Below, one piece after another: positions 8,339 through 45,039 of a DNA stretch of 64,000 nt. The position numbers were made by a program, and so were the translations under genes. How positions within the stretch are numbered: the stretch's first letter is position 1; each line of letters opens with the position of its first letter. The stretch comes from Halostagnicola larsenii XH-48 (GTDB lineage: Archaea; Halobacteriota; Halobacteria; Halobacteriales; Natrialbaceae): contig NZ_CP007057.1 of the NCBI RefSeq assembly GCF_000517625.1, positions 124,001-188,000 of the forward strand. Direction: 5' to 3'. Under the pieces are notes generated by a model. That model ran no database searches. It saw only the letters and a program-made list of their open reading frames with translations, and was not told the DNA's origin.

Positions 8339-8368
8339 TTGGATTGTAACGTATACGCCGTGGGAACA

Positions 8369-26353: not shown

Positions 26354-26375
26354 ATGATGCAAACGGGATCAAACA

Positions 26376-27320: not shown

Positions 27321-27322
27321 CC

Positions 27323-28231: not shown

Positions 28232-28271
28232 CGCACAGTACACCAAAGAAACGGACACGAACACGACTCAC

Positions 28272-28277
28272 GGAGGA
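28272..28277 (+). promoter_or_regulatory. Shine-Dalgarno site for the MalK-type ATPase
   Basis: The sequence ggagga stands 8 bases before ATG 28286. Internal operon genes here use such sites, whereas first genes look leaderless. Confidence 0.55.
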
Positions 28278-28285
28278 ATACAACA

Positions 28286-29443
28286 ATGGTTAACGTCGAA
28301 TACGATTCAGTCGAAAAGCGGTACGGAGAGACAATCGCAGTCGAGGATATCAACCTCAGCGTTGCGGATGGCGAGTTCGCTATCCTCCTCGGGCCCAGCG
28401 GGTGCGGGAAGACAACCACGTTACGCTGTCTCGCTGGCCTCACCGAACCGACCAGCGGGACGATTACGCTGGGGGACTACGATGTCACTGACGTACATCC
28501 GAAAAACCGTAACGCCGCGATGGTGTTCCAGAACTTCGCGCTCTATCCCCACATGAACGTCCGAGAGAATATTGGCTACCCGCTCAAAGTCGCGGGCGTC
28601 GATGGTGACGTCCGCGCCGAGCGCGTTCAAGAAGTCGCTGAAATGCTCGAGATTCCGGAGTTGCTTGATCGGGACATCGACAACCTCAGCGGCGGACAAC
28701 AACAGCGCGTCGCGCTCGGTCGGGCGATTATCCGTCGTCCATCCGTCTTCCTGATGGATGAGCCGCTCGCGAACCTCGACGCGAAACTGAAAATGAGCAT
28801 GCGCAGTCGGATCAAGGTTCTCCAGCGCGAGCTCGGTATCACGACGCTGTACGTAACCCACGACCAGGAGGAGGCAATGTCGTTGGGCGACAAACTCATT
28901 GTGATGGACCAGGGACACATCCAACAGATCGGTTCTCCGGACGAAGTCTATCACGAGCCCGAAAACAGGTTCGTCGCCGGCTTCATCGGATCGCCGTCGA
29001 TGAACTTCATCGACGTCACGATCGACGACTCGGGTACGGTTCGCTCCACGGATGCCGTCGACGGACTCGAGTACCGGCTAGAATCAGGCGTCGCCGATCG
29101 ATACAGCGATCACGATGAGTTCATCCTGGGAATCCGCCCGCAATACTTCAGTGTCCATACGGAACCAATGGATAACGCGATTCGTGGTCAAGTGAAGGTA
29201 ACGGAGCCTCAGGGCGATGACCAGATCGTCGATGTACTTGTCGGTGACGAGGACGGCAGTCACGTCGAACTCACCGTGAAAGCGCCGAGCACCGTCGAAG
29301 CCGTTCGAACTGAGGAAATCTGGCTCACGGTAGACGATACCCTCGTTCACGGGTTTGATGCCCAGTCCGGTTCCCGGATTGACGACGGTGATGTCGCGCG
29401 GACGAAAGCGAGCAAGCAGCACGCCGAATCGACATCGGACTGA
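28286..29443 (+). CDS. Sugar ABC transporter ATPase, MalK/UgpC type
   Basis: The 385-residue protein has Walker A GPSGCGKT (residues 36-43), Q-loop MVFQNFALYPHMNV, signature LSGGQQQR, Walker B VFLMDEPLANLDA and H-loop YVTHDQEEAM, followed by a C-terminal OB/TOBE regulatory domain from about residue 240 (MNFIDVTIDDSGTVRS). It energises the importer of 24986-28231. MalK-type ATPases in haloarchaea can serve several importers, but this one is encoded with its own. Confidence 0.94.
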   Translation: MVNVEYDSVEKRYGETIAVEDINLSVADGEFAILLGPSGCGKTTTLRCLAGLTEPTSGTITLGDYDVTDVHPKNRNAAMVFQNFALYPHMNVRENIGYPLKVAGVDGDVRAERVQEVAEMLEIPELLDRDIDNLSGGQQQRVALGRAIIRRPSVFLMDEPLANLDAKLKMSMRSRIKVLQRELGITTLYVTHDQEEAMSLGDKLIVMDQGHIQQIGSPDEVYHEPENRFVAGFIGSPSMNFIDVTIDDSGTVRSTDAVDGLEYRLESGVADRYSDHDEFILGIRPQYFSVHTEPMDNAIRGQVKVTEPQGDDQIVDVLVGDEDGSHVELTVKAPSTVEAVRTEEIWLTVDDTLVHGFDAQSGSRIDDGDVARTKASKQHAESTSD

Positions 29444-30298: not shown

Positions 30299-31114
30299 TT
30301 ACACGGTCTGGATTGTGGACCAGTAGTCGTAGTTCTCCTTGGCGTGGATGAGCGGTCGATCGGTCTGATTTTCGATCTCAATAGTATAATGTCCCTCGTA
30401 TCCGGTGTCTGTGAGTGCCTTATGGATCGCCTCGAAGTCGAGGATCCCGTTCCCCAGATCAGTGAACGATCGAAAGTAGTTGATGACGTTGTCTAGATGG
30501 AAGTCGGCCGCAGAGAGGGCGTCCCGGTTCGCTGCGAAATCTTTGACCGGATCGACATCCTTGAGGTGGACGTACGCGATGTCATCCGCGAACTGCTCGA
30601 TTCCGTCGGTTACATCGCCTGCGGGGAAATTTTCGCTGTAGGGGTAGTAGTGAGCGGTGTCGAAGAGGAGTTCGAGCCCGTCGACGGCGTCGAGGTAGCG
30701 TCGAATTTCCCCGGGCTGTTCGATGGCCGTCGCACCGTGGTGATGGACGACTGGCCGCACTCCGGCCTCGACGGCAGTATCGCTGATCCGCGATAGCCAT
30801 TGCTCGACGGTTAGGTCGTCGTATCGGGCGCGCTGTGGCGGCAGTATCCCAACGAACTCGGCACCAAGGTCGGCGACAGTCGGTATGTCGTCGAGTACTC
30901 GCTGGACCGCATCTTCGCTCTCGATCCACTCGCTCATCGCAAGGTAGAGGTCCAGATTATACTCATCAAGCCACCGACCAACTTTTTCGGGGCCGTTTGC
31001 GCGAATCTTCTCGAGTCCGATCTCGATACCATCGTACCGGCAGGCGGCGATATCTCCGAAAGCGTCCTCGATGTCCTCGGCATCGTACATAATGGCTGTG
31101 TATCCAGTTCCCAT
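30299..31114 (-). CDS. IolE-like sugar isomerase/dehydratase (TIM barrel), paralogue 1
   Basis: The 271-residue protein starts at ATG 31114 (MGTGYTAIMYDAEDIED); the longer open frame to 31321 adds non-family sequence. The xylose-isomerase-like barrel shows CRYDGIEIGLEKI, a metal site in RPVVHHHGATAIEQPGEI, LLFDTAHYYPYSENFPAG, IAYVHLKDVDPVKDF and a C-terminal YEGHYTIEIEN glutamate. The HHHG, DTAHYYPYG-like and HLKD set resembles inosose dehydratase IolE and IolO-type epimerases. A close paralogue lies at 40116. It is followed upstream by the IclR gene in the same direction, and its start codon lies inside the same motif as the IclR gene. Confidence 0.83.
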   Translation of the reverse strand: MGTGYTAIMYDAEDIEDAFGDIAACRYDGIEIGLEKIRANGPEKVGRWLDEYNLDLYLAMSEWIESEDAVQRVLDDIPTVADLGAEFVGILPPQRARYDDLTVEQWLSRISDTAVEAGVRPVVHHHGATAIEQPGEIRRYLDAVDGLELLFDTAHYYPYSENFPAGDVTDGIEQFADDIAYVHLKDVDPVKDFAANRDALSAADFHLDNVINYFRSFTDLGNGILDFEAIHKALTDTGYEGHYTIEIENQTDRPLIHAKENYDYWSTIQTV

Positions 31115-31133
31115 GTGGGATTCAAACATGGGA
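31111..31133. promoter_or_regulatory. Putative IclR operator overlapping the start of the isomerase gene
   Basis: The plus strand reads ccatgtgggattcaaaca followed by tggga; on the minus strand the second-last codon-size triplet of TCCCACATGG is the ATG of the isomerase. CATGT and ACATG at 31112-31116 and 31126-31130 form an inverted repeat. The same 18 bases with one change overlap the start of the IclR gene at 32173. Placement between TATA-like sequence (gatattttc, minus strand) and the start suits a repressor site. Confidence 0.45.
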
Positions 31134-31405
31134 CATGGAAAATATCTTCCGGAATCGACGACGTTCCGACTGTGCTGGGCAGTTGGCCAGTCACTGCTGG
31201 CCCACTCGTGTTGGATGCTACTGGTATCCTCTCTCCGAGCAGACGGACGGCGGTCTCGAACCTGAGTGGCGATCAAATCGCGCCGAGATAATCGGGGTAC
31301 CGTTCGTGTTTCGGGCAACACTTCTCAGAGCCCTACTTGACGGGTGCAAGCAGCGGTCCGAAAAGACCAGAACCAGTGCGAGAGACTCCAGAAACGAGCG
31401 TGGAG

Positions 31406-32173
31406 TCAGGAGAACTTTGCGTTGATTTCGATCACATTCGCGGATCGGGTGACCATGTTGGGAAGTTCCTCTCGGTACCGTTCGCCCGTCATCCGACTCG
31501 AGGGCCCGGAAATGCTCACCGCCCCAAGTACCTCGTTTTCGCCGGCCATTACTGGTGCCGCGACACATCGAAGTCCCTCGATTTTCTCCTCGTCGTCGAA
31601 TGCGTACCCGCGCTCGCGAATGGTTTCGAGTTCCTCGAAAAGTTCATCGCGGCTAGTAATCGTCTGCGAGGTGTACTCCGGCAGTCCGTGCCGATCGATT
31701 ATCCCTTTAACGCGCTCGCGTGGGTAATGGGCGAGAATCACCTTTCCGAGCGAAATACAATGAAGGTACTCCCGTTTTCCGATCGACGAGGCTGTCTGAA
31801 CGGCCCGCTCGCCGCCGTCCTTGTAGAGGTATACTGCGCGGCCGTGTTCCTCCGTCGCGAACTGAACCAGCTCATCGGATTGCTCGGCTAAGTCGGCCAG
31901 CTCGTCGGTTACGACATCATAGATCCCGAGGTGCTTCTTGACGCCCTCGCCAAGCTCGAGGTACCGGAGACTGAGCTGGTAGGCATCACCTTTTTTGACA
32001 ACGTGTTCCTTCTCGAGCAACGTTGCTAGATGGCAGTGAATTGTTCCTTTTGATCGGCCTAGTTCGTCTGCGATTTCTGTGATCCGAGCGCTATCGTGTT
32101 CGTGTAGGTAGTTAATGATTTCAAGCGTGATCCCCACCGCCTGAATCGTTCTCGGCTTTGTCGCCTTTTCCAT
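31406..32173 (-). CDS. IclR family transcriptional regulator of the second catabolic block
   Basis: From ATG 32173 (MEKATKPRTIQAVG) the protein is 255 residues. The winged helix covers about residues 12-60 (ITEIADELGRSKGTIHCHL as recognition region), and the effector domain carries EYLHCISLGKVILAHYPRE and ends with VSISGPSSRMTGERYREE, the IclR signature. It is divergent from the MmsA-type gene (32378) with about 200 bases between them, and lies directly upstream of an isomerase gene. XacR of Haloferax, the regulator of pentose oxidation, is in the same family. It probably senses a sugar acid or cyclitol intermediate and controls this block and itself. Confidence 0.9.
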   Translation of the reverse strand: MEKATKPRTIQAVGITLEIINYLHEHDSARITEIADELGRSKGTIHCHLATLLEKEHVVKKGDAYQLSLRYLELGEGVKKHLGIYDVVTDELADLAEQSDELVQFATEEHGRAVYLYKDGGERAVQTASSIGKREYLHCISLGKVILAHYPRERVKGIIDRHGLPEYTSQTITSRDELFEELETIRERGYAFDDEEKIEGLRCVAAPVMAGENEVLGAVSISGPSSRMTGERYREELPNMVTRSANVIEINAKFS

Positions 32174-32187
32174 GTGGGAGTCAAACA
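32170..32187. promoter_or_regulatory. Putative IclR operator overlapping the regulator's own start
   Basis: The plus strand reads ccatgtgggagtcaaaca, one base different from 31111-31128. On the minus strand the ATG of the IclR gene is embedded in TCCCACATGG, and a TATA-like aacaattta lies about 20 bases further upstream. Position implies autoregulation; no binding evidence is available from sequence alone. Confidence 0.45.
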
Positions 32188-32377
32188 CGCGGGTCCACTA
32201 AATTGTTTGTGTCTGCCAAACGAACCAGTAGCTGCCCTCACCTCATTTTTGCTGAGCATGATACTGGACCAGTTGAGTAGTCAGCGGCCCCATCAAATCA
32301 ACGTGAACGAGGATAGGGGCCTCTCGAGATAGAACGAGCGTAACGTATTTGTGTTCGTGCCGCAACGAATATCTTGT

Positions 32378-33877
32378 ATGTCCGAGCAACGAGAGCAAGC
32401 CGTTTCGCCAGCTGTTCGTAACCGCGTCGATAACTACGTTGGTGGGGAGTGGACGACACCAACCACTGAGACCTCCCAACCGGTGGTCGACCCTGCAACA
32501 GGAGATGAACTCGCAACGGTCGAATACTCGACCGCAGAAACCGTCGACGAGGCAGTCCGAACGGCGGACGAGGTGTTCGAGGAATGGCGACAGACGCCCG
32601 TCGTCGACCGAGTACAGTATCTTTTTGATCTGAAGGCCGAACTCGAGAACCGACTCGACGAGATTGCGACTGCACTGTCCCGCGAACACGGGAAGACCAT
32701 CGCAGAGGCCCGCGGCGAGATCCAACGCGGTATCGAGAACGTCGAGGTCGCCTGCGGAATGCCGAACATGATGCGTGAGGGCAGCGGAAACGTCGAAGAT
32801 GTCGCACCCGGTATGGACGAATACGCTGTTCGCCAGCCTCTCGGCGTCTTCACCGCCATCACGCCCTTTAATTTCCCTGCGATGATCCCGCTGTGGTTCC
32901 TTCCATACGCGGTCGCGTCCGGGAACACGTTCATTCTCAAACCCAGCGAGAAGGTCCCGTTGAGCTCCCAGCTCATCTTCGAGGCAGTCGACGCGGTCGG
33001 TTTCCCCGATGGAGTCGTTAACCTCGTCAACGGCGGGGCCAACACTGTCAACGCACTGCTCGAGCACGACGACATCGAGGGCGTCTCGTTCGTCGGAAGT
33101 TCCCCCGTTGCAAAGCACGTCTACGAGACTGCCGCCGAACACGGCAAGCGCGTCCAGGCACAGGGAGGCGCGAAGAACTACGCCGTTGTTACCGAGCACG
33201 CCGCGGTTGACGATGCTGTTCCGAATATCACCGGCTCCGTCTACGGTAACGCCGGCCAGCGCTGTCTCGCCAACGACGTCGTCGTCGGTGTCGGCGATGT
33301 CTACGATGAACTCCGCGAACAGTTGATCGAAGCCGCCGAGAACCTTACCGTCGGCGCCGGTGTCGATGAGGATACTGATGTTGGACCCCTGATTACAGGC
33401 GACTCGCGCGAACGCGTTATCGACCTGATCGACAACGCGCTCGAGGAGGGAGCTGAACTCGTCCTCGACGGACGTGACTTCGAACACTCGAACGCAGAAC
33501 TTGACGGCCACTTCCTGGGTCCGACGCTCCTTAAGGGTGTCACGACCGACATGGAGATCGCACAGGAGGAAATCTTCGGGCCGGTGCTGTGTCTCGCCGA
33601 CGCCGGTGACCTGGATGAGGCGATCGAAATGGTCAACTCGACGGAGTACGGCAACGCGTCTTCGATCTACACCGAATCGGGCAGCGAGGCGCGCCAGTAC
33701 AAGTACGAGGTCGATGCGGGGAACATCGGCGTCAATGTCGGCGTCTGTGCTCCGATGGGGTTCTTCCACTTCGGCGGGCGGAAAGCGTCGTTCTTCGGCG
33801 ATTTGCACGCTCAGGGCGAAGATGCGGTCAACTTCTACACTGAGAAAACGGTTCAGATCGAACGGTGGTATAGCTAA
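32378..33877 (+). CDS. mmsA: Methylmalonate-semialdehyde dehydrogenase (CoA-acylating), MmsA/IolA type
   Basis: From ATG 32378 (MSEQREQAVSPAV) the protein is 499 residues. It has the MmsA-typical GKTIAEARGEIQRGIENVE, RQPLGVFTAITPFNFPAMIP, catalytic Cys296 in GNAGQRCLAN, AQGGAKNYAVV lacking the general-base glutamate of hydrolytic aldehyde dehydrogenases, and the C-terminal FHFGGRKASFFGDLHAQGED. Such enzymes convert malonate or methylmalonate semialdehyde with NAD and CoA to acetyl- or propionyl-CoA plus CO2; IolA does this as the last step of inositol breakdown, and others do it in valine breakdown. Divergent from the IclR gene. A TATA-like cgtatttgtg lies about 30 bases upstream. Confidence 0.9.
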   Translation: MSEQREQAVSPAVRNRVDNYVGGEWTTPTTETSQPVVDPATGDELATVEYSTAETVDEAVRTADEVFEEWRQTPVVDRVQYLFDLKAELENRLDEIATALSREHGKTIAEARGEIQRGIENVEVACGMPNMMREGSGNVEDVAPGMDEYAVRQPLGVFTAITPFNFPAMIPLWFLPYAVASGNTFILKPSEKVPLSSQLIFEAVDAVGFPDGVVNLVNGGANTVNALLEHDDIEGVSFVGSSPVAKHVYETAAEHGKRVQAQGGAKNYAVVTEHAAVDDAVPNITGSVYGNAGQRCLANDVVVGVGDVYDELREQLIEAAENLTVGAGVDEDTDVGPLITGDSRERVIDLIDNALEEGAELVLDGRDFEHSNAELDGHFLGPTLLKGVTTDMEIAQEEIFGPVLCLADAGDLDEAIEMVNSTEYGNASSIYTESGSEARQYKYEVDAGNIGVNVGVCAPMGFFHFGGRKASFFGDLHAQGEDAVNFYTEKTVQIERWYS

Positions 33878-34301
33878 GGTTCGAACCTCGCTTCCGACAA
33901 CCAAGGTCAGTTACCCAGTGAACCCCCGATGGGTCTGTTCTTTTGTGGAAATTCGTCGTGTGGCCTGTTCGAGATACCCTAGTCACGTATTCGTCGTCGA
34001 AGCGAATCACTCGCTTTCGATCACCGGAAGCTATAACAGGCATCTCCTCAATCGATTTGATAATGCGACTCGCTCTCAACGGCTGTGACGTAACCACCCC
34101 GACGCCGCTTCAGGGCGCCGGCGGTAATCAGAGCGAGTTGCACTGCTCCCGTCGATCGCACGGAGCAAGACCGATGCGAGGCGTCGTATCTCGCCGGTCC
34201 GGACATGCGGCCAGTTCATCGCGGGTCTGTTCCGGGGCAAAAACGCGATTCCGAGGACAGCGAAACCAGCCGAACACAGAGACGAAACTACGACACAAAC
34301 C
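33878..34301. other. 424-base intergenic region
   Basis: No gene or clear signal was recognised between the MmsA stop and the sugar-acid dehydratase start. Short open frames here have no family features. Confidence 0.45.
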
Positions 34302-35540
34302 ATGTACGAAGACTTTGCATCAACTCTCGCGGCGACGATGTGGACCGACTTCGACGAAACACCAGAACGGGAGGGACCAACTGCCGAGATAACGGACATC
34401 GATTCGTTCGTCATCGACGGTAACTTCCCGTGGACGATCATCACCCTCGAGACCGATCAAGGCGTGACGGGGATCGGCGAGGCTTACCCCTCACCGGGCG
34501 TTCACGAGATCGTCACGGACTACCTCCGACCCGTACTCGTCGGTGAGAACCCGCTCGACGTCGAGCGGCTCTACAACCTCATGCGCGAGAGCCTCTCGGG
34601 CCGAGGATCGCAGTGGGGCGTCGGGACGATCGCCATCAGCGGTGTCGAGATCGCGCTCTGGGATGCGGCCGGCAAAATACTCGACCAGCCGATCTACCAG
34701 CTACTCGGCGGGAAGACCCGCGACGAGGTTCGCGTCTATGCCGATTGCCACGCGGGGGAAGCGATGGTTTCCTCGGCCGAGGAGGGCCAGGAGGAGACGA
34801 CCTACGAACCCGAGGCGTACGCACGAGCTGCCCGATTGGCGGTTGAAGACGGGTTTGACGCGGTCAAGTTCGATCTCGATGTTCCGTCCGGACGGGACAT
34901 CGACACGCTCTCGAGACACTTCGATCCCCCGGAGATCGAGCACAAGCGATCCGTCGTCGAGGCCGTCACCGAGGAAGTCGGTGACGACGCTGAGGTCGCG
35001 GTTGACCTTCACTGGAACTTCAGTCCCGAAACCGCCGAACGACTTTGCGAAGCTATCGAACCCTACGACCTCGCCTGGGTCGAAGATCCACTCCCGCCCG
35101 AGAACACCGATGCGATGCGGGAGCTGAAACGGTCGACTAACGTGACGCTGTTGACCGGTGAGAACCGCTACGGCCGGCACGGGTTCCGCGATCTAATCGA
35201 GGAGCAAGCGGTGGACTTCCTCGCCCCCGACGTTCCGAAGACCGGCGGTATCGCGGAGACGAAGAAGATCGCGGACATGGCCGAGGCCTACTATCAGGCG
35301 CTGATTCCGCACAATATCGGCAGCCCAGTTGCGACGGTCGCGACCGCCCACGTCGGCGCGACGGTTCCGAACTTCGTCGCCCTGGAGTATCACGCCCGCG
35401 AGGTGCCATGGTGGGACGACCTCGTTGCGCGGGACGACCCGCTCATCCAGAACGGACGGCTTACGGTCCCCGACGGGCCGGGACTCGGCATCGAACTCGA
35501 CTGGGACGTCGTCGACGAACACCGGAAAACACGGTCCTGA
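34302..35540 (+). CDS. Enolase-superfamily sugar-acid dehydratase (gluconate/galactonate dehydratase-like)
   Basis: The 412-residue protein has the mandelate-racemase-type fold with TGIGEAYPSPGVHEI in the cap, K189 and D191 in AVKFDLD, metal ligands D235 (VDLHWNF), E261 (WVEDPLPPEN) and E287 (LTGENRYGR), and H337 in LIPHNIGSPV. The DLHW, EDP, GEN and PHN pattern is that of D-galactonate/D-gluconate-type dehydratases, which give 2-keto-3-deoxy acids. It differs from the dehydratase at 3973, so the two act on different acids. It precedes the F420-dependent enzyme by about 155 bases. Confidence 0.87.
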   Translation: MYEDFASTLAATMWTDFDETPEREGPTAEITDIDSFVIDGNFPWTIITLETDQGVTGIGEAYPSPGVHEIVTDYLRPVLVGENPLDVERLYNLMRESLSGRGSQWGVGTIAISGVEIALWDAAGKILDQPIYQLLGGKTRDEVRVYADCHAGEAMVSSAEEGQEETTYEPEAYARAARLAVEDGFDAVKFDLDVPSGRDIDTLSRHFDPPEIEHKRSVVEAVTEEVGDDAEVAVDLHWNFSPETAERLCEAIEPYDLAWVEDPLPPENTDAMRELKRSTNVTLLTGENRYGRHGFRDLIEEQAVDFLAPDVPKTGGIAETKKIADMAEAYYQALIPHNIGSPVATVATAHVGATVPNFVALEYHAREVPWWDDLVARDDPLIQNGRLTVPDGPGLGIELDWDVVDEHRKTRS

Positions 35541-35695
35541 CACGACTGCGCGGTGCGATTGCTAGATTCTTTTCCCCACCGCTCCTTAACGTCATTCACC
35601 GCGGCTCTCCTCGAGATGAAACACGTTCTCACCCGGATCCGGTCGGCAGTCGAGCACAAAACCTAATGCACAGTCCGCCGTACTGTCAGGTGCCG

Positions 35696-36715
35696 ATGGT
35701 TAACATCGATTACATGGCGCATCAGGAGCAGTACGACCCATCGACGCTGTTGGACTACGGGGAACACGCGACCGACAGCGGGTACGAAACCGTCTGGACG
35801 TCGGATCACTTCCACCCGTGGTTTCATACGGAAGCGGACTCCGGGTTCGCGTGGTCTTGGCTCGGCGCAGCCACCGAACGGCTGGACGGCCCGATTGGGA
35901 CCTGCGTGACGCCCGCGACGGGCCACTACCATCCCGGGATGATCGCACAGGCGTTCGCCACGCTTCAACACCTCCACGATGATCGGGTACTGCTCGGTCT
36001 CTCCACCGGTGAGGCGATGAACGAGACGCCGCTCGGGTTCGACTGGCCCGAGTACCCCGAACGCCGCGACCGGCTTGAGGAAGCCCTCGAAATCATCCGC
36101 GCGCTCTGGGGCGACGACGAGTGGGTCAGCGACGATGTCGGTGATAGGATCGACGAGGACGGATTCGTCACCTACGACGGGGAGCGGTTCGAACTCGACG
36201 AGGCCAAACTGTACACGATGTCCGAGCGGTCGCCGGAGATTCACATCGCGGCAAACGGGCCAAGCACCGCCCGGCTCGCGGCGCGGTATGCCGATGGGTT
36301 CGTCACCGTCAAGAAAGGAGAGGAGTACACCGAGCGGCTCTACCCCGCTATCCGCCGCTACGCCGAAGAGGAGGGCAACGACCCGGACGCGATCGAGACG
36401 ACGCTGCTCGTGACCGCGTCTTACCACTCCGACTACGAGCAGGCGCTCGAGGCGACGCGCCCGTGGCACGCGACGACCCAGAACGTCTTTGACCGGGCGC
36501 TGGCGGACCCGAGAGATATCGAAGCTGAGGGAGAGAAGGCAACCCGCGAGGAAGTAGAAGAGAAGTTTTTGATCGCTGACGATCCGTCGGCCATTGCGAG
36601 TCAGCTCGAGGAGTACGCCGAGATGGGCTTCGATCGGATCGCGGTTGCGAACACCAGCCCGGATCCCGAGCAGCTATTCGAGGTGATGAACGACGACGTG
36701 ATTCCGTCGCTGTGA
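35696..36715 (+). CDS. F420-dependent (LLM class) sugar dehydrogenase-like oxidoreductase
   Basis: From ATG 35696 (MVNIDYMAHQEQYDPSTLL) the protein is 339 residues. It matches the F420-dependent glucose-6-phosphate dehydrogenase branch of the luciferase-like family: TVWTSDHFHPWFHTEADSGF, GTCVTPATGHYHPGMIAQ, LGLSTGEAMNETPLGFDWPE and SERSPEIHIAANGPSTARLA. Histidine in SDHFHPW is an F420/active-site position in Fgd enzymes. It would oxidise a sugar, sugar phosphate or cyclitol and pass hydride to deazaflavin F420, which haloarchaea make. The open frame extends to 35408 but that part overlaps the previous gene and is non-family. Substrate unknown. Confidence 0.83.
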   Translation: MVNIDYMAHQEQYDPSTLLDYGEHATDSGYETVWTSDHFHPWFHTEADSGFAWSWLGAATERLDGPIGTCVTPATGHYHPGMIAQAFATLQHLHDDRVLLGLSTGEAMNETPLGFDWPEYPERRDRLEEALEIIRALWGDDEWVSDDVGDRIDEDGFVTYDGERFELDEAKLYTMSERSPEIHIAANGPSTARLAARYADGFVTVKKGEEYTERLYPAIRRYAEEEGNDPDAIETTLLVTASYHSDYEQALEATRPWHATTQNVFDRALADPRDIEAEGEKATREEVEEKFLIADDPSAIASQLEEYAEMGFDRIAVANTSPDPEQLFEVMNDDVIPSL

Positions 36716-36900
36716 CCAGCGGTCAGGAGAGCCCCTTCGCTGGAGTCAGAAACCTCGCAACCGAGCTGGAGGCAGCTATTCGGCTCAACGTTCGACCCAG
36801 TCACCATTCTCGACGGCTGCTAGGTATCAGGTGTTTTCGGTATCGGTGCAGGATCGATGATCCGTATATCAGTGATCCGTGGAACCGACAGCCAAGGGCG

Positions 36901-36910
36901 AATATTTATG
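36901..36910 (+). promoter_or_regulatory. TATA box of the TPP-enzyme gene
   Basis: The sequence aatatttatg lies 25-34 bases before ATG 36935 and so supports that start over upstream in-frame ATGs at 36857 and 36908. Confidence 0.5.
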
Positions 36911-36934
36911 ATACACCGTGATAATTCATTGAAT

Positions 36935-38677
36935 ATGCCCACGCTTACTGGTGGCGAGATCGTCGCCAAGTATCTAGAAAAGGAGGGCGTAGAGTATCTG
37001 GTCGGCATTCCCGGTCACGGAAGCACCAACCTGCTCGACGCGTTCAACGACTCCGATGTCGAGGTTATTCAGCCGCGCCACGAACAGGGCGCGACCCACC
37101 TTGCGGACGGGTATGCCCGCGCATCAGGCGATCCGCTCGCGGTCTTCACCTCGATTGGACCCGGAGCGACGAACACCGTTACCGGTGCTGCGACGGCGTA
37201 CGTCGACTCGATTCCGATGGTCATCTTCACCGGAGCGCCACAGACTCACGAGTACGGACAGGGGATCCTGCAGGAACTCGACCGGCAGAAACCCGGCGAC
37301 TTCCCGAGCGTGATGGAACCGGTGACAAAACGGAGCTTCGTCGTACGAGACGTCGAACAGCTCCCTCGGACCTTGCGACGCGCGTTTCAGGTTGCCGTCA
37401 CGGGTCGGCCGGGACCCGTCCACGTTGACATCCCGATGGACGTACAGGGAAGTGCCGCGGATGTCGAGATTCCCGATCCCGAGGAGACGCGCACGCACAG
37501 TCGACCGGGCGGCGATCCGGAATCGATCGAAGAGGCGGCGAACCTGCTCGCCGACGCTGATCGCCCCGTGATCGTTCCCGGCGGTGGGTGTATGCTCGGC
37601 GAGGCATGGGACGAGGTGCAAGCGCTCGCCGAACACCTGAAAGCACCCGTTATTCCGACGTTCCAGGCGAAGGGGATCATCCCCGAAGACCACGAACTCT
37701 TCGTCGGGTACGCAGGCTGGATCGGGTCGTCGGCCGGAAACGAACTTGCGAGCAACGCGGACGTCGTCCTCGGGATCGGCTGTCGATTCTCCGACTTGCA
37801 CACGTCATCGTTCGAACAGGGGGTCAGCTTCGAGATACCGCCGAGCAAGCTGATCCACGTCGACATCGACAACACGGAGATCGGCAAGAACTACCCCGTC
37901 GAGGTCGGCATCCTCGGCGACGCCAAGGTCGTCACCGACCAACTCCACGACGCCGTCTTCGAGCGCGTCGACGAAGTGTCGACCGAGGACAACGAGTACT
38001 ACGACGAGATCCAGCGCCTGTGGGCCGACTGGCAGGAACAGGTCGAACAGCGCCACACCGACGATGTTCCGATGAGTATCGCCCGCGCACTCGCGAGTCT
38101 CCGAGAGGCACTGCCCCGCGAGGGCATGATCGTCTCAAGCGCGGGTCAACCCCAGGAGATCACGAACCCGGAGTTCCCGGTGTACGATCCGCGGACGAAC
38201 ATCTCCTGTGGCGGATTCTCGACGATGGGCTTTGGCGTCTCTGCCGCGATCGGAGCGAAACTCGCCGAACCCGACCGGCCCGTTGTCGACATCGAAGGCG
38301 ACGGAAGTTTCCTGATGTGCAACCAAGAAGTCGCCTGCGCGGTCGAACACGACATCGATGTCACCTGGGTCGTGGTCAACAACAACGGCTGGAAGTCGAT
38401 TCGCAATCTGCAAGTCGACAAGTACGGCTGGGACCGGGTTCTCAACACGGAGTTCGACAACGACAGCGATGTCGACTTCGTGAAGATGGCCGACGCGTTC
38501 AGCATCGATTTCGCCGAACGCGTCGTTAAACCCGAAAATCTCACGGAAACGATCACGGACGCTATCGAGCACGACGGCCCCGCGTTCGTCGAAGCCGTCG
38601 TCGAACCCGACAGCGCCGACTCCGGCGCCATCATCACTGGTGAGTGGGATCTGGCGGATCTCGAAGCGGACGACTAA
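36935..38677 (+). CDS. Thiamine-pyrophosphate-dependent enzyme (acetolactate synthase/IolD superfamily)
   Basis: The 580-residue protein begins MPTLTGGEIVAKYLEKEGVE and carries the activating glutamate E50 in QPRHEQGATHLADGYAR, the central FAD/ADP-like domain (RPVIVPGGGCML), and the C-terminal TPP motif IEGDGSFLMCNQEV ending at VVNNNGWKSIRNLQ. The family makes or breaks C-C bonds next to a carbonyl. IolD uses this chemistry to hydrolyse a cyclic 1,2-diketone in inositol breakdown. The gene stands directly before an IolM-like dehydrogenase. It is shorter than typical IolD, and acetolactate synthase-like, glyoxylate carboligase-like or oxalyl-CoA decarboxylase-like roles cannot be excluded. A dedicated branched-chain biosynthesis role is unlikely here because no small subunit is adjacent. 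Confidence 0.85.
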   Translation: MPTLTGGEIVAKYLEKEGVEYLVGIPGHGSTNLLDAFNDSDVEVIQPRHEQGATHLADGYARASGDPLAVFTSIGPGATNTVTGAATAYVDSIPMVIFTGAPQTHEYGQGILQELDRQKPGDFPSVMEPVTKRSFVVRDVEQLPRTLRRAFQVAVTGRPGPVHVDIPMDVQGSAADVEIPDPEETRTHSRPGGDPESIEEAANLLADADRPVIVPGGGCMLGEAWDEVQALAEHLKAPVIPTFQAKGIIPEDHELFVGYAGWIGSSAGNELASNADVVLGIGCRFSDLHTSSFEQGVSFEIPPSKLIHVDIDNTEIGKNYPVEVGILGDAKVVTDQLHDAVFERVDEVSTEDNEYYDEIQRLWADWQEQVEQRHTDDVPMSIARALASLREALPREGMIVSSAGQPQEITNPEFPVYDPRTNISCGGFSTMGFGVSAAIGAKLAEPDRPVVDIEGDGSFLMCNQEVACAVEHDIDVTWVVVNNNGWKSIRNLQVDKYGWDRVLNTEFDNDSDVDFVKMADAFSIDFAERVVKPENLTETITDAIEHDGPAFVEAVVEPDSADSGAIITGEWDLADLEADD

Positions 38678-38757
38678 CCGGGCGATCGCTGCCGGATACG
38701 CACGAGCGAATCACTCGAGTTTCTGTCCTTGCTAATCGGGGGCATCCTGACTCCGAT

Positions 38758-38769
38758 ATTATTATAATA
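38758..38769 (+). promoter_or_regulatory. TATA box of the IolM-like gene
   Basis: The sequence attattataata lies 22-33 bases before ATG 38791, giving the IolM-like gene its own leaderless promoter. Confidence 0.55.
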
Positions 38770-38790
38770 GATGATAGCAAACCACATAGT

Positions 38791-39945
38791 ATGCAATCCC
38801 TTGTAGTGGACGCCGAGTGGGACCCCCGTGCGGAATATGACGTTTCGGACGCCGAGCGCGAATCAAAGAAAGCGATGGACGCCTCACAGGTATGGCGAAA
38901 TCCCGAATTCCGAATGACTGAGCGGGAACGGCCGACACCGGAGGACGACGAAGTGCTCGTCAGAGTGAAGTACGCGGGCATTTGCGGGAGCGATGTCTCC
39001 ATGCTCGAGACGGACGATGACGGTTACGTCCACTATTCGGCGTACCTCCGTCTCCCGAACGTGACCGGCCACGAGTTCGCAGGTGAGATCGTCGAGACGG
39101 GCGATGATACACAACTGTTCGAGGCAGGCGACCTCGTCACTGCGGAGGTTACCGACTACTGTGGGCGCTGTAATATGTGCCGGCAGGGCTTCAACGGCCA
39201 CTGCGAGAACTTCGAACAGATCGGCTTTACCATTCCAGGCGCGTTCGCAGAGTATGTCGCCGTCCCGGAGAAACTGTGCTGGGATGTCTCAGCGCTTCGC
39301 GAAACGTACGAAACGGACGACGAAGCGCTTCGAGCCGCCGCGACGATCGAGCCGAGCACCATCACGTACCACGGACTGTTCGCTCGAGCCGACGGGATCT
39401 TGCCCGGGGACTATCACGTCTACCACGGTGCGGGTCCGATCGGGCTGACCGGGATGAACGTCTCTCGGGCCGCCGGCGCGGGTAAGGTGATTGCGTTCGA
39501 GCCCTCCGACGAGCGCCGCGAGATCGCAAGAAAGCTCGGCTACGAACACGTTTACAATCCGATCGAACACGATCCGATTGAGACGATCGCCTCGGTTACG
39601 GACGGCGAGGGAGCTGATGTTCACGTTGAGACTGCCGGTGCGGTCACGCAGACGTACCCCGCTATCGGGGATACGCTGGCTGAGACCGCAAATGTGGTCC
39701 ATATCAGCAATGCCGGATCCGACCCTGGAATTGCACTGCGGAAGTACCAGGGCAACAGCGCCCAACTCTATGGGTCGGAGGGACACACCGGTCAGCAGGT
39801 CTACCCGCGAGTGATTCGATTGATGGCCGCCGGACAGCTCGATAACCGACCGATGGTCACGTCCACGTTCGATCTCTCCAACGCCGACGAAGCAATTCGG
39901 CAGGCTGCCGAGCGCGTCGACGGGAAAGTTCTCATCAAGATGTAG
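38791..39945 (+). CDS. IolM-like zinc dehydrogenase (scyllo-inosose 3-dehydrogenase-like)
   Basis: From ATG 38791 the protein is 384 residues. The opening (VVDAEWDPRAEY, ASQVWRNPEFRM) and long N-terminal lead before the catalytic domain match, from memory, Thermotoga maritima TM0412/IolM rather than ordinary alcohol dehydrogenases. Catalytic zinc ligands are C65 (GICGSD), H94 and E95 (TGHEFAG); structural zinc cysteines are C124, C127, C130 and C138. The Rossmann loop is GAGPIGLTG, and GSEGHTGQQVYPRVIRLMA is another family feature. IolM oxidises 2-keto-myo-inositol to a diketo-inositol with NAD. It follows the TPP enzyme by 113 bases with its own TATA box. Alternatives are a threonine- or sorbitol-type dehydrogenase. 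Confidence 0.8.
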   Translation: MQSLVVDAEWDPRAEYDVSDAERESKKAMDASQVWRNPEFRMTERERPTPEDDEVLVRVKYAGICGSDVSMLETDDDGYVHYSAYLRLPNVTGHEFAGEIVETGDDTQLFEAGDLVTAEVTDYCGRCNMCRQGFNGHCENFEQIGFTIPGAFAEYVAVPEKLCWDVSALRETYETDDEALRAAATIEPSTITYHGLFARADGILPGDYHVYHGAGPIGLTGMNVSRAAGAGKVIAFEPSDERREIARKLGYEHVYNPIEHDPIETIASVTDGEGADVHVETAGAVTQTYPAIGDTLAETANVVHISNAGSDPGIALRKYQGNSAQLYGSEGHTGQQVYPRVIRLMAAGQLDNRPMVTSTFDLSNADEAIRQAAERVDGKVLIKM

Positions 39946-40082
39946 ACGCTATTCGAGCGCTATTGGCCGTTTACGTGACGATCTCGTGATGGAGATTGCT
40001 GGCCGTATAAATTCAATCGATGTAACAAACGGTTCTTTCTCCACTGTTAGTACAGTGGCCCGGCATTCGTCACCAAACCACA

Positions 40083-40092
40083 CTATTTATTA
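40083..40092 (+). promoter_or_regulatory. TATA box of isomerase paralogue 2
   Basis: The sequence ctatttatta lies 24-33 bases before ATG 40116. An in-frame ATG at 40092 overlaps the box and is therefore an unlikely start. Confidence 0.55.
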
Positions 40093-40115
40093 TGTCGCCC
40101 GGTAGTGGATTGTGT

Positions 40116-40919
40116 ATGGGCGTAGGATACACGACCATCATGTACGACCCAGCGGAGGTACTGTCTGAAGGCCTCGGTGACTTCGCCGCCTGTCGGTACG
40201 ACGGCGTCGAGATCGGTCTCGGCAAAGTCGAATACATCGGCGTCGACTCCCTGCAGGAGTCCCTTGAGGAAAACGGCCTCGACATCTACTGTGTCATGGC
40301 GGGCTGGCTCAACAACGAGGAAGACGTCGAGGCGGCAGTCGACGGGGCCGCGATCGCGGCCGAACTCGACGCCCGCTTCCTCGGGATCTTGCCCCCGCCG
40401 CGGGGCCAGGAGACCGACGAAACGTTCGATGCGTGGCTCGATCGAATCTGTACGGCGGCCGCCGACGCCGGCGTCACGCCCGTCCTCCATCATCACGGTG
40501 CCTCACACATCGAGAGTCCCGAAGAAATCGAAGAGTGGCTTGACCGAGCACCCGACAACCTCGAGTTGTTGTACGACACGGCACACTACCAGCCATACGG
40601 CGATGTCCTTGACGGCATCCATCGGTTCGCAGATGATATTGCGTACGTTCACCTCAAAGATATCGACCCAACAGTCGACTTCCAGAGTCACGTCGATACC
40701 CTTTCCGCGGGGAACATCCAGTACGACAGCCTCTTCGTGTTCCTCACGTCGTTCGTCGATCTCGGAGCAGGCGTCATCGACTTCGAAGCTGTCGACGAAG
40801 CGCTCGACGAGATCGGATACGAGGGACAGATTACAATCGAAATCGAGAACGAACGTAACGACAGGCTCGTCCACGCAAAGCGCAACATCGATCACTGGAC
40901 CGACGCAACCAACGCGTGA
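40116..40919 (+). CDS. IolE-like sugar isomerase/dehydratase (TIM barrel), paralogue 2
   Basis: The 267-residue protein begins MGVGYTTIMYDPAEVL and follows the paralogue at 30299-31114 along its length: CRYDGVEIGLGKV, PVLHHHGASHIESPEEI, LLYDTAHYQPYGDVLDG, IAYVHLKDIDPTVDF and YEGQITIEIENERN. These contain the metal-binding glutamate, histidine and aspartate positions of inosose dehydratases and keto-sugar epimerases. It stands behind the IolM-like gene in the same direction. The two paralogues may carry out consecutive or stereochemically different steps (dehydration and epimerisation). Exact reactions unknown. Confidence 0.85.
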   Translation: MGVGYTTIMYDPAEVLSEGLGDFAACRYDGVEIGLGKVEYIGVDSLQESLEENGLDIYCVMAGWLNNEEDVEAAVDGAAIAAELDARFLGILPPPRGQETDETFDAWLDRICTAAADAGVTPVLHHHGASHIESPEEIEEWLDRAPDNLELLYDTAHYQPYGDVLDGIHRFADDIAYVHLKDIDPTVDFQSHVDTLSAGNIQYDSLFVFLTSFVDLGAGVIDFEAVDEALDEIGYEGQITIEIENERNDRLVHAKRNIDHWTDATNA

Positions 40920-41085
40920 GAACAAGTCGGTAATCGGGCGGAATCGCCGCGAGTAGCAATCAACCGCCACTTACCCTTCTGTCGGCGATCACGAGCAGCG
41001 CAGCGACGGCAGCAATCGCTCGGAGCACGCTGATAGAATATACTCCAATCGAGGAACTGTCCGGGGTTGGAGATCGGCTGCGCGA

Positions 41086-42195
41086 TCAGGCGTCGGTCTC
41101 GACCGCGAGTCGCTGCCCTTGCTCGTCGCTTTGGACGACCGTGTCGACGATTCGCTGTACCGTCAGCGCTTCATCGAAGGAAACGATACCATCGCCCTCG
41201 TCCGCAATCGCGCGGAGGAACTCGTAATTTTCGTGAACGACGGTGTGTTCCCAGCCGATCGTGTGGCCAGCCGGCCACCATCGCTCGCCGTACGGATCCT
41301 CGTCATCGGTGACGAGGATCCGTTCGTAGCCCCGTCGGTCGGCGTCGTATACCTCGAGTTCGTTGAGCCGCTCGAGATCGAATCGGACTGCGCCCTCGGA
41401 GCCGATGATTTCGATCGCATTGGTTGCCTTGTGTCCCGACGCTACGCTCGAGCCTTCGAAGACGCCGACAGCACCGGATTCGAACGACGCCGTTGCGAGG
41501 TAGATATCGTCGGTTGTCACCGGTCGCGCGCTTTCGTCGTCGGCCGCAGGCCGTTCGTCTACAAGCGTCGCGAGCCGTCCGCTAACGTCAGTGATCTCCC
41601 CGACGAGCCAACGAGCAAGATCGATCGTGTGTGAGCCGACATCGCCGACCTGACCGTAGCCCGCCCGCTCGACGTTGTTACGCCAGACCCACGGATGCTT
41701 GGGATCGGCCTGCCAGTCGACGAGGTACTGCCCGCGGACGTGTCGTATCTCGCCGAGCGTGCCCTGCTCGATCAGTTCCTTCGCCAGCCGAAGCGCTGGG
41801 ACGTATCGGTAGTTGAACGCGCACGCGGCGACAGCGTCGCTCTCCCTTGCTGCTGTTACCATCCGTTCGGCGTTCTCGAGAGAGGCAGCGAGCGGTTTCT
41901 CACAGAGGACGTGGACATCCTGCTTGAGGGCTGCGATCGTCGGTTCGGCGTGAAGGTCGTTCGGTCCGAGATTGTAGAGGACGTCCACCTCGTCGACGAG
42001 CGTCTCCCAGTCGTCGGTCGTGTGGGTGAACCCGAACCGATCGGCGGCCGCGGCGACGCGTTCCTCGTTGCGCCCGCAGAGGACGTGTCGATCGGTGTCC
42101 GGTGCCTCGGGAAAGAACATCGGGAGGCGAGCCAGTGCGTTCGCGTGGGCCTGTCCCATGAAGCCGTAGCCGATGAACCCGACGCGTAGGCTCAT
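41086..42195 (-). CDS. Gfo/Idh/MocA family dehydrogenase (inositol dehydrogenase-like candidate)
   Basis: The 369-residue protein has MSLRVGFIGYGFMGQAHANA with the nucleotide-binding loop, catalytic CEKP (residues 99-102), FNYRYVPALRLAKELIEQG, then WVWRNNVERAGYGQVGDVGS followed by HTIDLARWL, the GxHxxD catalytic pair. This long-insert form is common among myo-/scyllo-inositol and levoglucosan-type dehydrogenases. It is divergent from the paralogue at 42489. A ggaggtc stretch 5-11 bases upstream of ATG 42195 could be the ribosome-binding site. It is the best candidate in the block for oxidation of a cyclitol to an inosose; substrate unproven. Confidence 0.87.
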   Translation of the reverse strand: MSLRVGFIGYGFMGQAHANALARLPMFFPEAPDTDRHVLCGRNEERVAAAADRFGFTHTTDDWETLVDEVDVLYNLGPNDLHAEPTIAALKQDVHVLCEKPLAASLENAERMVTAARESDAVAACAFNYRYVPALRLAKELIEQGTLGEIRHVRGQYLVDWQADPKHPWVWRNNVERAGYGQVGDVGSHTIDLARWLVGEITDVSGRLATLVDERPAADDESARPVTTDDIYLATASFESGAVGVFEGSSVASGHKATNAIEIIGSEGAVRFDLERLNELEVYDADRRGYERILVTDDEDPYGERWWPAGHTIGWEHTVVHENYEFLRAIADEGDGIVSFDEALTVQRIVDTVVQSDEQGQRLAVETDA

Positions 42196-42453
42196 CGGAA
42201 TCGACCTCCGCTGTGTAACGTGGCAGCTGTAATCGATTTCGTCTCAACTCGAGTCCGTACTTCATGCTGTCGTCCGCTCGTTTTAGTCCCAGGGCTATCC
42301 CCGAGACGAGTGCTAGACCGCATACTGGACGGATTGATCGCATCGGGCAAATAGATACCGGGATCACTACCCGCTGATGTTGACCGTCGAATCTTCAACC
42401 TGAGTTAGGGGCTTCCATCGTAGTACGCGGCATCTCGTGGTAGTCGTTGGCAA

Positions 42454-42463
42454 GTTATTTGTG
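42454..42463 (+). promoter_or_regulatory. TATA-like element of the oxidoreductase gene at 42489
   Basis: The sequence gttatttgtg lies 26-35 bases before ATG 42489 and supports the internal start over the ATG at 42447. Confidence 0.4.
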
Positions 42464-42488
42464 GAATGATGAACAACCTTCTCTCGAG

Positions 42489-43577
42489 ATGAAAATCGGA
42501 GTTATCGGTGTCGGCGCTATCGCACAGATCATGCACGTTCCGTACCTCGCGGAACTGCCCGAAGCTGACATTCACGCGATCGCAGATCCTGGCGAAAACG
42601 TGGTCGAAACGTTCGGTGACCGATACAACGTTTCCCATCGATACACGGAGAGTACGGCGCTGATCGAAGATCAGGCCGAAACGCTCGACGGCGTGGTGAT
42701 CACCACGCCGATGCACACCCACGCGGAGGTAGCAATCGCTTCTCTCGAGGCGGATTTACACACGTTCGTCGAAAAGCCGGTGGCCGTGACGCCCGCAGAC
42801 GCACAACGAGTCGTCGATGCATCCGAAGCGTCGGACGCGGTTTGTATGGTCGGTTACATGAAACAGTTCGATCCCGGCTTCCAGCGATTCCAGTCTGCAG
42901 TCGACGACGTCTCCGAGGTCAATCTCGTCACGAGTACCGTTATCCCCCCGGACGTCGGCTCGGTCATCGAGGAGAACTACGATATCGTCTACGCCGACCT
43001 CGCGGACTCGTTCATCGAGGAGAGCAACGAAGAGCGCCGCCAGCAAGTCGAACAGGCGATTGGAACCGATGACGAGACGCTTTCGCAGGCGTACGATTTC
43101 CACCTTGAAAGCATCTGCCACGATATCAATGCGTTGCGGTCCGTGTTCGGATCCGTCGAACAGATCGACCACATCGACATCTTCGACGACTGGAAATTTA
43201 TCACTGCACAACTCCGGTACGAAGGAGACCGACGATGTCTCTTGAAGGCCGGGACGAGCGATCGGAAGTGCTACGACGAGCGCATTCACGTTGACGCCCC
43301 CGAGGGATCGGCATCAATCGAGTTCTCAAATGCGTTCATCAAGAACACCCCGTCGGATGTCCGCGCTAAACTCGGCACGGAAGAGACGACGGAGACACAG
43401 TATACTCCCTCGTCGGACGAACCGTTCAAACGGGAACTCCAACACTTCCTCGAGTGTATCGAGGGATCGGCTGAGCCCCGGACGCCACCAGCAGAATCGA
43501 AGCGAGATGTCGAACTCATTGCCGACCTTATCCGAACGTACGACAAGGAGGGCGAGGCGAGTAGCGTCAGCCGCTAG
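42489..43577 (+). CDS. Gfo/Idh/MocA family oxidoreductase (paralogue of the 22689 product)
   Basis: From ATG 42489 (MKIGVIGVGAIAQIMHVPY) the protein is 362 residues. It shares with the 22689 product the start pattern, the VEKP catalytic motif (residues 96-99), the charged insert DSFIEESNEERRQQVEQAI and the unusual LESICHDINALRSVFG. The two are clearly a paralogous pair placed one in each catabolic block. The substrate is unknown; a sugar acid or inosose is suggested by neighbours. Confidence 0.87.
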   Translation: MKIGVIGVGAIAQIMHVPYLAELPEADIHAIADPGENVVETFGDRYNVSHRYTESTALIEDQAETLDGVVITTPMHTHAEVAIASLEADLHTFVEKPVAVTPADAQRVVDASEASDAVCMVGYMKQFDPGFQRFQSAVDDVSEVNLVTSTVIPPDVGSVIEENYDIVYADLADSFIEESNEERRQQVEQAIGTDDETLSQAYDFHLESICHDINALRSVFGSVEQIDHIDIFDDWKFITAQLRYEGDRRCLLKAGTSDRKCYDERIHVDAPEGSASIEFSNAFIKNTPSDVRAKLGTEETTETQYTPSSDEPFKRELQHFLECIEGSAEPRTPPAESKRDVELIADLIRTYDKEGEASSVSR

Positions 43578-43685: not shown

Positions 43686-44492
43686 CTACCACTCCATCCA
43701 AGCAGGGTCCTCACAGCGGAGTCGGCGATCGATGTTGTCGATTCGTTCGATATCCTCGTCGTCCAATTCAAGTTCAAGCGCCTTGCGGTTGTTCCGAATG
43801 TGTTCGGGCGTCTTCGACCGGGGAATCGGAACGACGTCATCCTTCGAGAGGAGCCAGGTCAGACTAACTGTGGCCTCGTTCACGTCGTGTTTGTCGGCGA
43901 TCGACGAAATTTCAGGGGTATCGAACACTTCGCCCTGCGCGATCGGGGAGTAAGCGACGAAGTACGCGTCACGGTCTCGGACGGCCGCACGGAGTTCCTC
44001 CTGTGGTAAGAACGGGTGCATCTCGGCCTGGACCGCATACGGTGACGGTTCGAGGAGTTCGTCGGCAAGTTCTAGATCCGAGGGTGTATAGTTGCTCACG
44101 CCGACGCGCTCGACCTGTCCCGAATTGACGAGTTCGTTGAAGACGGGTAATACGGTCTCGATGTCGTCCTGGCCGCGGGGCCAATGGTGGTAGAGCAGAT
44201 CGATCGTCTCGATCCCGAGTCGAGAGAGACTTTCCTCGACGCCATTTCGAATATAGTCCGGCGTCTTCTCCGGTTCCTCGAAATGGGCGATCTTCGTGGC
44301 GACGAACAGGTCGTCGCGATCGACGTTGGCACGGGCGATAGCCTCGCCGACCTCCGCTTCGTTTCCGTAGAGACGGGCCGTATCGAGGTGACGGTACCCC
44401 GATTCGATCGCCGTCACGAGGGCGTCGATCCCGTCCTCGTCAGTGAGACTGTACGTCCCGAATCCGAGCCTGTAGTCGCTTTTCTCAAGCAT
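43686..44492 (-). CDS. Aldo/keto reductase
   Basis: The 268-residue protein starts at ATG 44492 (MLEKSDYRLGFGTYSL). The catalytic tetrad is visible as D (HLDTARLYGNE, with the tyrosine), K (FVATKIAHFE) and H (LLYHHWPRG), and the NADPH site as PIPRSKTPEHIRNN. The family reduces aldehydes and keto-sugars with NADPH. It converges with the oxidoreductase at 42489 and closes the second catabolic block. A role in reducing a keto-sugar or aldehyde product is plausible but unspecific. Confidence 0.9.
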   Translation of the reverse strand: MLEKSDYRLGFGTYSLTDEDGIDALVTAIESGYRHLDTARLYGNEAEVGEAIARANVDRDDLFVATKIAHFEEPEKTPDYIRNGVEESLSRLGIETIDLLYHHWPRGQDDIETVLPVFNELVNSGQVERVGVSNYTPSDLELADELLEPSPYAVQAEMHPFLPQEELRAAVRDRDAYFVAYSPIAQGEVFDTPEISSIADKHDVNEATVSLTWLLSKDDVVPIPRSKTPEHIRNNRKALELELDDEDIERIDNIDRRLRCEDPAWMEW

Positions 44493-45039
44493 GCCCGAAA
44501 CAAGGCTCGAGCGGCCCTTATATTTTCTCGTTCGAAGGTTGCTTGAGGTCAAACTCAACTCTATTCTGGGTATTGGGCCAGTGCCTGACGATAGTGATTA
44601 CCTATCATAACCCAGTGAGCAGTTTTCACGATGCCGTTGAGCGACCAGAAGACAGCGTTTGCAAGACGAAAACGACATTCTCTCCCTCGTATCGAATTCT
44701 GCGAATAAATTCCGGCTTCTATGAACGAGTGCTCATGAAAACGGCTGTTACTCCAATCCAGTGACTCTATCTGTGTTTGATCATTACGAACTACCGGACG
44801 AGGGGATAATCTCAACAGTCGGTCAAACGTTGAAGTGTTTCCGGCCGAACGAAATGAAGTAGCGCCTTCCGAAAGAATTTACACCCATACATGTGTAATT
44901 GTATGGGTGTGATCGTTCCGAGATGAATCACCCAGCAAAGTTGGCGCATTTGGACGTTTGTAAGACGCAAACGAGGTCCCTCAGTCCCTCTCGTCCGGTG
45001 GCATGGAGTGGCAGCTGTTTCAGCGGTAAATATCCCCGT
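44493..45039. other. 547-base intergenic region
   Basis: No recognisable gene. A minus-strand open frame at 44561-44815 (containing RFRLANAVFWSLNGIVKT) has the composition of real coding sequence but matches nothing I know. It may be a fragment. Confidence 0.4.

Follow-up and report, generated by a model that had tools for sequence, protein, structure and literature searches.

We analysed a 64,000-nt window of the 4.13-Mb genome of Halostagnicola larsenii XH-48 (five contigs), positions 124,001 to 188,000 of contig NZ_CP007057.1, in which a sequence-only reading had placed a block for inositol or inosose catabolism, under one IclR regulator, at window positions 30299–43577. A check of open reading frames (ORFs) and profiles of the window proteins recovered all 10 genes of that interval. 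The gene types that had been named were found at their expected places: the IclR regulator, a sugar-acid dehydratase of the MR/MLE (enolase) superfamily, an F420-type LLM oxidoreductase, two Gfo/Idh/MocA dehydrogenases and an enzyme dependent on thiamine pyrophosphate (TPP), along with an MmsA/IolA-type dehydrogenase, an IolM-like Zn dehydrogenase and two IolE-like TIM barrels (Table 1). Several raw ORF starts proved too long and were revised to ATG codons at 38791 (IolM), 31114 (first IolE-like barrel) and 32378 (MmsA); the TPP enzyme has a conserved Met at 36935 (its raw ORF begins at 36857), and the LLM gene possibly starts at 35696 instead of 35666.

The catabolic unit is larger than this interval and covers about 21.8–45 kb of the window, since copies of the palindrome GTTTG-N7-CAAAC bracket that region and relatives of the flanking genes recur beside IolM and TPP genes in some of the other haloarchaeal loci. 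Genome-wide there are four exact copies of the palindrome, every one of them at this cluster; the reversed pattern, used as a control, is found once on each strand. One-mismatch palindromes number 8 in the window versus 1.35 expected, with copies near the aldo-keto reductase (AKR) gene at 44657 and 44775 and another, outside the cluster, at 54656. In 49 loci of relatives, a set that includes repeats of the same genomes, the spacer of 7 occurs 33 times versus twice each for spacers of 4 and 12, with zero occurrences for the remaining spacers between 3 and 12. The palindrome may be a cluster-specific operator, and we infer that the IclR protein binds it. The wider limits add an HpcH/GarL-type aldolase, a further Gfo dehydrogenase (GfoA) and an ABC (ATP-binding cassette) transporter. 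The 13-kb interval of the sequence-only reading leaves out the aldolase and other flanking genes.

A remnant of a phosphoenolpyruvate (PEP) synthase gene lies at 21455–21760 on the minus strand (61% identity across 103 residues of 864). Directly upstream of it stands an exact palindrome, a hint that a complete ppsA may once have been part of the regulon. A Natronococcus contig (L063) has a full-length PEP synthase gene near its cluster.

Genes of the block are inherited together. Among 392 genomes searched in the order, 28 have an IolM protein above the family cut-off, and a gap in scores (470 to 240 bits) sets them apart. The IolM-negative genomes used for comparison were hand-picked and non-random (52 of 364 for the TPP enzyme, the first 32 of these for the other genes). 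Relatives of the TPP enzyme (at least 67% identity) were detected in 25 of the 28 IolM-positive and in none of the 52 IolM-negative genomes (Fisher p 9e-18, relatedness ignored). LLM and IolE-like relatives were found in the same 25 genomes versus 0 of 32, MR/MLE relatives (at least 75%) in 25 of 28 versus 1 of 32 and cluster-type MmsA (at least 74%) in 19 of 28 versus 1 of 32. In 20-kb stretches around 27 other IolM genes, tblastn located the TPP enzyme in 21, LLM in 21, an IolE-like protein in 17, AKR in 16, MR/MLE in 14, MmsA in 14, HpcH in 12, IclR in 12, a GfoA-type dehydrogenase in 8, the ABC binding protein in 8 and the ABC transporter as a whole in 6 to 8; these counts are lower bounds because the stretches are cut. 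Where LLM and TPP genes are both present, they lie on the same strand less than 400 bases apart in 14 of 21 loci.

Table 1. Genes and operator-like sites of the cluster and its borders (window coordinates; functions given as proposed are predictions)
Feature	Position	Strand	Remark
Palindromic operator-like site	21846..21862		Upstream of PEP-synthase remnant
Palindromic operator-like site	22566..22582		Upstream of GfoA
GfoA, Gfo/Idh/MocA dehydrogenase	22689..23756	+	Candidate inositol dehydrogenase; best NCBIfam match IolG
HpcH/HpaI/GarL-type pyruvate aldolase	23793..24590	-	Proposed 4-hydroxy-2-oxoadipate aldolase
Sugar ABC transporter	24986..29443	+	Proposed uptake system; binding protein 24986-26353, permeases 26376-27320 and 27323-28231, ATPase 28286-29443
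IolE-like TIM barrel 1	30299..31114	-	HHH motif; proposed inosose dehydratase
IclR-family regulator	31406..32188	-	Proposed palindrome binder
Palindromic operator-like site	32205..32221		Between divergent iclR and mmsA
MmsA/IolA-type dehydrogenase	32378..33877	+	CoA-acylating (methyl)malonate-semialdehyde dehydrogenase
MR/MLE (enolase superfamily) sugar-acid dehydratase	34302..35540	+	Proposed 5-deoxyglucarate dehydratase
LLM oxidoreductase	35666..36715	+	F420-dependent glucose-6-phosphate/alcohol dehydrogenase type; proposed 5-deoxyglucuronate dehydrogenase
TPP enzyme	36935..38677	+	Own haloarchaeal clade; proposed cyclic-dione hydrolase
IolM-family Zn dehydrogenase	38791..39945	+	Above cut-off of scyllo-inosose 3-dehydrogenase model
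IolE-like TIM barrel 2	40092..40919	+	Proposed inosose dehydratase; conserved Met at residue 9
Gfo1, Gfo/Idh/MocA dehydrogenase	41086..42195	-	Accessory; nearest levoglucosan dehydrogenase model
Gfo2, Gfo/Idh/MocA dehydrogenase	42447..43577	+	Accessory; best match IolG
AKR	43686..44558	-	DkgB-like
Palindromic operator-like site	44956..44972		About 400 bases upstream of AKR gene
EamA/DMT-family transporter	45040..45939	-	Membership doubtful; beside cluster in 2 of 27 other loci

Two enzymes of the block belong to the families proposed for them. MmsA scores above the cut-off of the CoA-acylating methylmalonate-semialdehyde dehydrogenase (MMSDH) model TIGR01722 (533.5 versus 448.5 bits), and the 10 PDB sequences that it matches at E<=1e-100 are all MMSDH. 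The Zn dehydrogenase scores above the cut-off of the NCBIfam IolM model NF041097 (554.6 versus 450 bits); the Thermotoga IolM activity is presumably the conversion of scyllo-inosose to a 1,3-dione. Assignment to the threonine dehydrogenases, the alternative raised in the sequence-only reading, was rejected (555 bits for IolM versus 177). Among the matches listed, eight haloarchaeal plasmids already carry the NCBI label iolM on this gene, and the cluster neighbours in Haloterrigena turkmenica DSM 5511, which carries the cluster genes (HTUR_RS21475 to RS21410), are annotated by superfamily names only, MMSDH excepted. A Streptomyces chartreusis plasmid (L104) has, near a different TPP-dependent enzyme, a distant gene (36% identity) that bears the label iolM.

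IolM can be absent from the cluster. Six TPP-bearing genomes were searched whole, five of which have IolM; Halomicrobium katesii DSM 19301, which also carries cluster genes, does not. Three of the six TPP loci (L089, L091, L093) have no IolM in the stretch read. The H. katesii cluster has the order IclR, LLM, TPP, MmsA, HpcH, Gfo, MR/MLE, IolE-like, thus containing all seven proposed enzymes, Gfo included. We read this set, found in one genome, as a minimal one in which a Gfo enzyme may replace the IolM function. In locus L045 a second IolM copy (7684–8838, 70% identical) stands where the window has Gfo1, which suggests that IolM and Gfo may be interchangeable.

The TPP enzyme had been assigned to the IolD superfamily. 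Its score against the IolD model TIGR04377 is 287.5 bits, below the cut-off of 715, and IolD was rejected on this ground, even though no other TPP enzyme of the genome scores higher with the model; identity to three IolD proteins is 26.9–28.0%. Acetolactate synthase (ALS), which the sequence-only reading had named among the assignments that would refute it, fares better in similarity: 443 bits with TIGR00118 (cut-off 538, unreached), 34.5% identity to the ALS of the same genome and 35.6% to that of Rhizobium. In the tree, however, the cluster enzyme falls outside the ALS group, and this candidate was rejected too; a different TPP enzyme encoded in this genome (L068) joins two ALS with 100% support, and the cluster family forms a separate clade outside them and outside the three IolD. 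The profile of this family matches cyclohexane-1,2-dione hydrolase (PDB entry 2pgn) at 202 bits, well under the 323 bits of acetolactate synthase. The hydrolase too belongs to the TPP superfamily, and its substrate is a cyclic 1,2-dione. A scan of contigs from 84,980 species with two short patterns, which distant relatives may have escaped, returned 22 haloarchaeal loci at 67–93% identity and otherwise three bacterial ones at 30–34%; a plasmid search added many weaker relatives below 60%. The structure model of the enzyme is poor (mean pLDDT 52.6). In Haloarcula pellucida (L090) there is a second paralogue with 67% identity, and the other cluster genes are missing from its stretch.

For the two xylose-isomerase-like TIM barrels the best NCBIfam match is indeed IolE (TIGR04379); since their scores of 75.0 and 74.8 bits fall below the cut-off of 290, they are IolE-like and not members of IolE. 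IolO and IolE share one fold superfamily. The IolO model NF041099 gave 25.8 bits with barrel 2 (cut-off 300) and was absent from the matches listed for barrel 1. A sequence search of the PDB with barrel 2 returned two sequences with E<=0.01, each of them an IolE, and alignment with the Sphingobium IolE and with 3cny revealed shared HHH, DTxH, VHxKD and IExE stretches, which we take to form the metal site. With a structure model (pLDDT 79.6), Foldseek placed IolE at ranks 1–3 and 6 among matches that span a broad fold family.

The LLM protein is closest to F420-dependent alcohol dehydrogenase and F420-dependent glucose-6-phosphate dehydrogenase (FGD). It shares with the latter the LLM family and the DHFxPW and GEAxNE stretches, presumably catalytic, and stays below the cut-off of the NCBIfam FGD model (196 of 420 bits). 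In 3 of 27 loci (L041, 14613–15449; L044; L045) an MBL-fold hydrolase gene lies between LLM and TPP. The candidate IolN was rejected for it; the one examined matches the model of a UlaG-type lactonase (ascorbate-6-phosphate lactonase family) with 90.8 of 306 bits, and a lactonase homologue in this position would be consistent with LLM forming a lactone. The aldolase is closest to GarL/HpaI and would supply the C-C cleavage of the pathway.

We infer from these families the following route. Inositol would be taken up by the ABC transporter and oxidized by a Gfo enzyme or IolM to scyllo-inosose, which an IolE-like barrel would dehydrate to the trihydroxy-1,2-dione. The TPP enzyme would open this ring hydrolytically to 5-deoxyglucuronate, whose aldehyde or hemiacetal end the F420-type LLM enzyme would oxidize to give 5-deoxyglucarate. 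Dehydration by the MR/MLE enzyme would then yield 4-hydroxy-2-oxoadipate, aldol cleavage by HpcH would produce pyruvate and malonate semialdehyde, and MmsA would convert the latter to acetyl-CoA and CO2. Such a route would use each core gene once and dispense with IolB, IolC, IolJ, IolN and phosphorylation of intermediates. By our own calculation its balance closes (C6H12O6 + H2O -> pyruvate + acetate equivalent + CO2 + 6[H]), and the 6[H] match three two-electron oxidations (Gfo/IolM, LLM and MmsA). The first steps, of Bacillus type, were checked against the accessible parts of PMC9603128 and PMC9430895.

With middling confidence we read the block as the central part of a haloarchaeal regulon that is dedicated to inositol (cyclitol) catabolism, is controlled by IclR and works by this route. 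More tentatively, and a little short of that confidence, we propose that it represents a third pathway for inositol breakdown, which this analysis has met in haloarchaea only: free of phosphorylation, with F420-dependent oxidation of 5-deoxyglucuronate, an HpcH aldolase in place of IolB-IolC-IolJ, TPP-dependent cyclic-dione hydrolases that form a new clade, and one IclR regulator with its cluster-specific operator.

Several observations weigh against these proposals. The barrels and the TPP enzyme miss the IolE and IolD cut-offs, and so do the Gfo proteins for IolG (TIGR04380, cut-off 355 bits; Gfo1 107, Gfo2 112, GfoA 90 bits); the TPP enzyme shares 26 alignment columns with ALS only versus 10 with IolD only. 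Should IolM produce the 1,3-dione, as its Thermotoga counterpart does, the IolE step proposed here would not follow from it. The aldolase, present in only 12 of the 27 stretches, has no relative in the 35 kb read around the H. turkmenica IolM gene, and the palindrome occurs in only 8 of the 27. Three IolM-positive genomes lack TPP, LLM and IolE-like genes (G381, 99% complete; G086, 89%; G013, 78%), so that IolM can stand in another context. MR/MLE relatives at 73–75% identity occur in 3 of 32 IolM-negative genomes overall, two further ones than the genome counted above having them at 73–74%, and G381 has one at 72%. Finally, a survey of 1,511 archaeal genomes describes, in its accessible part, inositol degradation by Iol clusters as so far restricted to bacteria (PMC9430895).

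An unlikely explanation, in our view, is a Thermotoga-like route with the TPP enzyme replacing IolN: IolM would oxidize scyllo-inosose to the 1,3-dione, the TPP enzyme would cleave it to 5-keto-gluconate, an IolE-like barrel would act as an IolO-like epimerase, and AKR, MR/MLE and HpcH would lead through a 2-keto-3-deoxy acid to pyruvate and glyceraldehyde. The IolM score, the tight IolM-TPP co-inheritance, the weak IolO match of barrel 2 and an IolN below its cut-off agree with it; the H. katesii cluster without IolM does not, MmsA and LLM would have no role, the IolO score is far from its cut-off and the only PDB sequence matches of barrel 2 are IolE. We consider it equally improbable that the substrate is another polyhydroxy ring or keto sugar, such as a different cyclitol or an anhydrosugar, with the Iol resemblances at superfamily level only. 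The missed IolE, IolD and IolG cut-offs, the sugar-acid genes in the neighbourhood and the proximity of Gfo1 to levoglucosan dehydrogenase (305 bits, cut-off 650) would be explained in this way, but not the IolM score or the restriction of PDB matches to IolE, and MMSDH fits malonate semialdehyde, a product of the inositol pathway. Least probable is a uronate route, in which TPP-dependent opening of a vicinal diketo-inositol gives a hexuronate, LLM an aldarate, and MR/MLE with the GarL-like HpcH pyruvate and tartronate semialdehyde: the resemblances of LLM to F420-dependent glucose-6-phosphate dehydrogenase and of HpcH to GarL and the presence of an MR/MLE enzyme suit it, but it requires IolM to make a 1,2-dione and leaves without a role MmsA and the IolE-like barrel found in all 25 TPP-positive of the 28 IolM-positive genomes.

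Outside the unit, window positions 6762–18869 hold a UxuA-type mannonate dehydratase, a DHDPS-family aldolase, a Zn dehydrogenase, a short GH28 (polygalacturonase-type) ORF and a peptide-type ABC transporter, a content that suggests an adjoining uronate/pectin cluster; a further IclR gene lies at 19830–20606. In Haladaptatus clusters a sulfatase gene (L064:2622-4181) lies within the ABC-transporter operon, perhaps a hint of a sulfated substrate there.

The proposed regulon shares with the Bacillus/Salmonella Iol system (IolG-IolE-IolD-IolB-IolC-IolJ-IolA) the proposed dehydrogenation, dehydration and TPP-dependent ring opening and the final MmsA/IolA step; acetyl-CoA is probably an end product, one of the two outcomes that had been predicted. 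It differs in that no IolB was found and the TPP enzyme stays below the IolD cut-off, and 5-deoxyglucuronate would here be oxidized by the F420-type enzyme and its product cleaved unphosphorylated by the HpcH aldolase. IolB had no match in the whole genome (3 of 14 control genomes gave matches); IolC and IolJ were not among the matches listed for 20 window proteins in NCBIfam, with no genome-wide search made for them. Rodionova et al. reportedly described in 2013 the IolG-IolM-IolN-IolO pathway of Thermotoga maritima, with which the cluster has the IolM-family Zn dehydrogenase in common. Here, unlike in that pathway, IolM can be absent, as in H. katesii; IolO stays below its cut-off, the four IolN matches in the genome (NF041098, best 62.7 bits) all stay below 245 bits, and TPP, LLM and MmsA genes are extra. 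The sequence-only reading is supported in part: its cyclitol-type catabolic unit distinct from both routes, without recognizable IolB or IolN, is upheld and proves to be conserved, but we judge a haloarchaeal route that can lack IolM more probable than its Bacillus/Thermotoga hybrid.

The survey of 2022 mentioned above (PMC9430895, as accessible) found homologues of Iol enzymes in five of its archaeal genomes, two of them labelled ‘Halobacteriales archaeon’. In GapMind 2022, among 15 inositol users taken from data of the International Journal of Systematic and Evolutionary Microbiology (IJSEM), the accessible part reports a DUF2090 aldolase in seven and IolJ in none (PMC9007349), hence further cleavage routes may exist. 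Our literature search, which covered few subscription journals, brought up no publication that describes an inositol route in archaea, no data on induction and nothing usable on inositol growth of cluster-bearing species; three haloarchaeal strains, with or without the cluster, are given in the accessible part of PMC7490331 as unable to use inositol.

If the proposal is true, haloarchaea would have their own way of degrading inositols, in analogy with the non-phosphorylative pathways by which they use sugars, and the cluster would bring a new clade of TPP-dependent hydrolases and a catabolic job for coenzyme F420.

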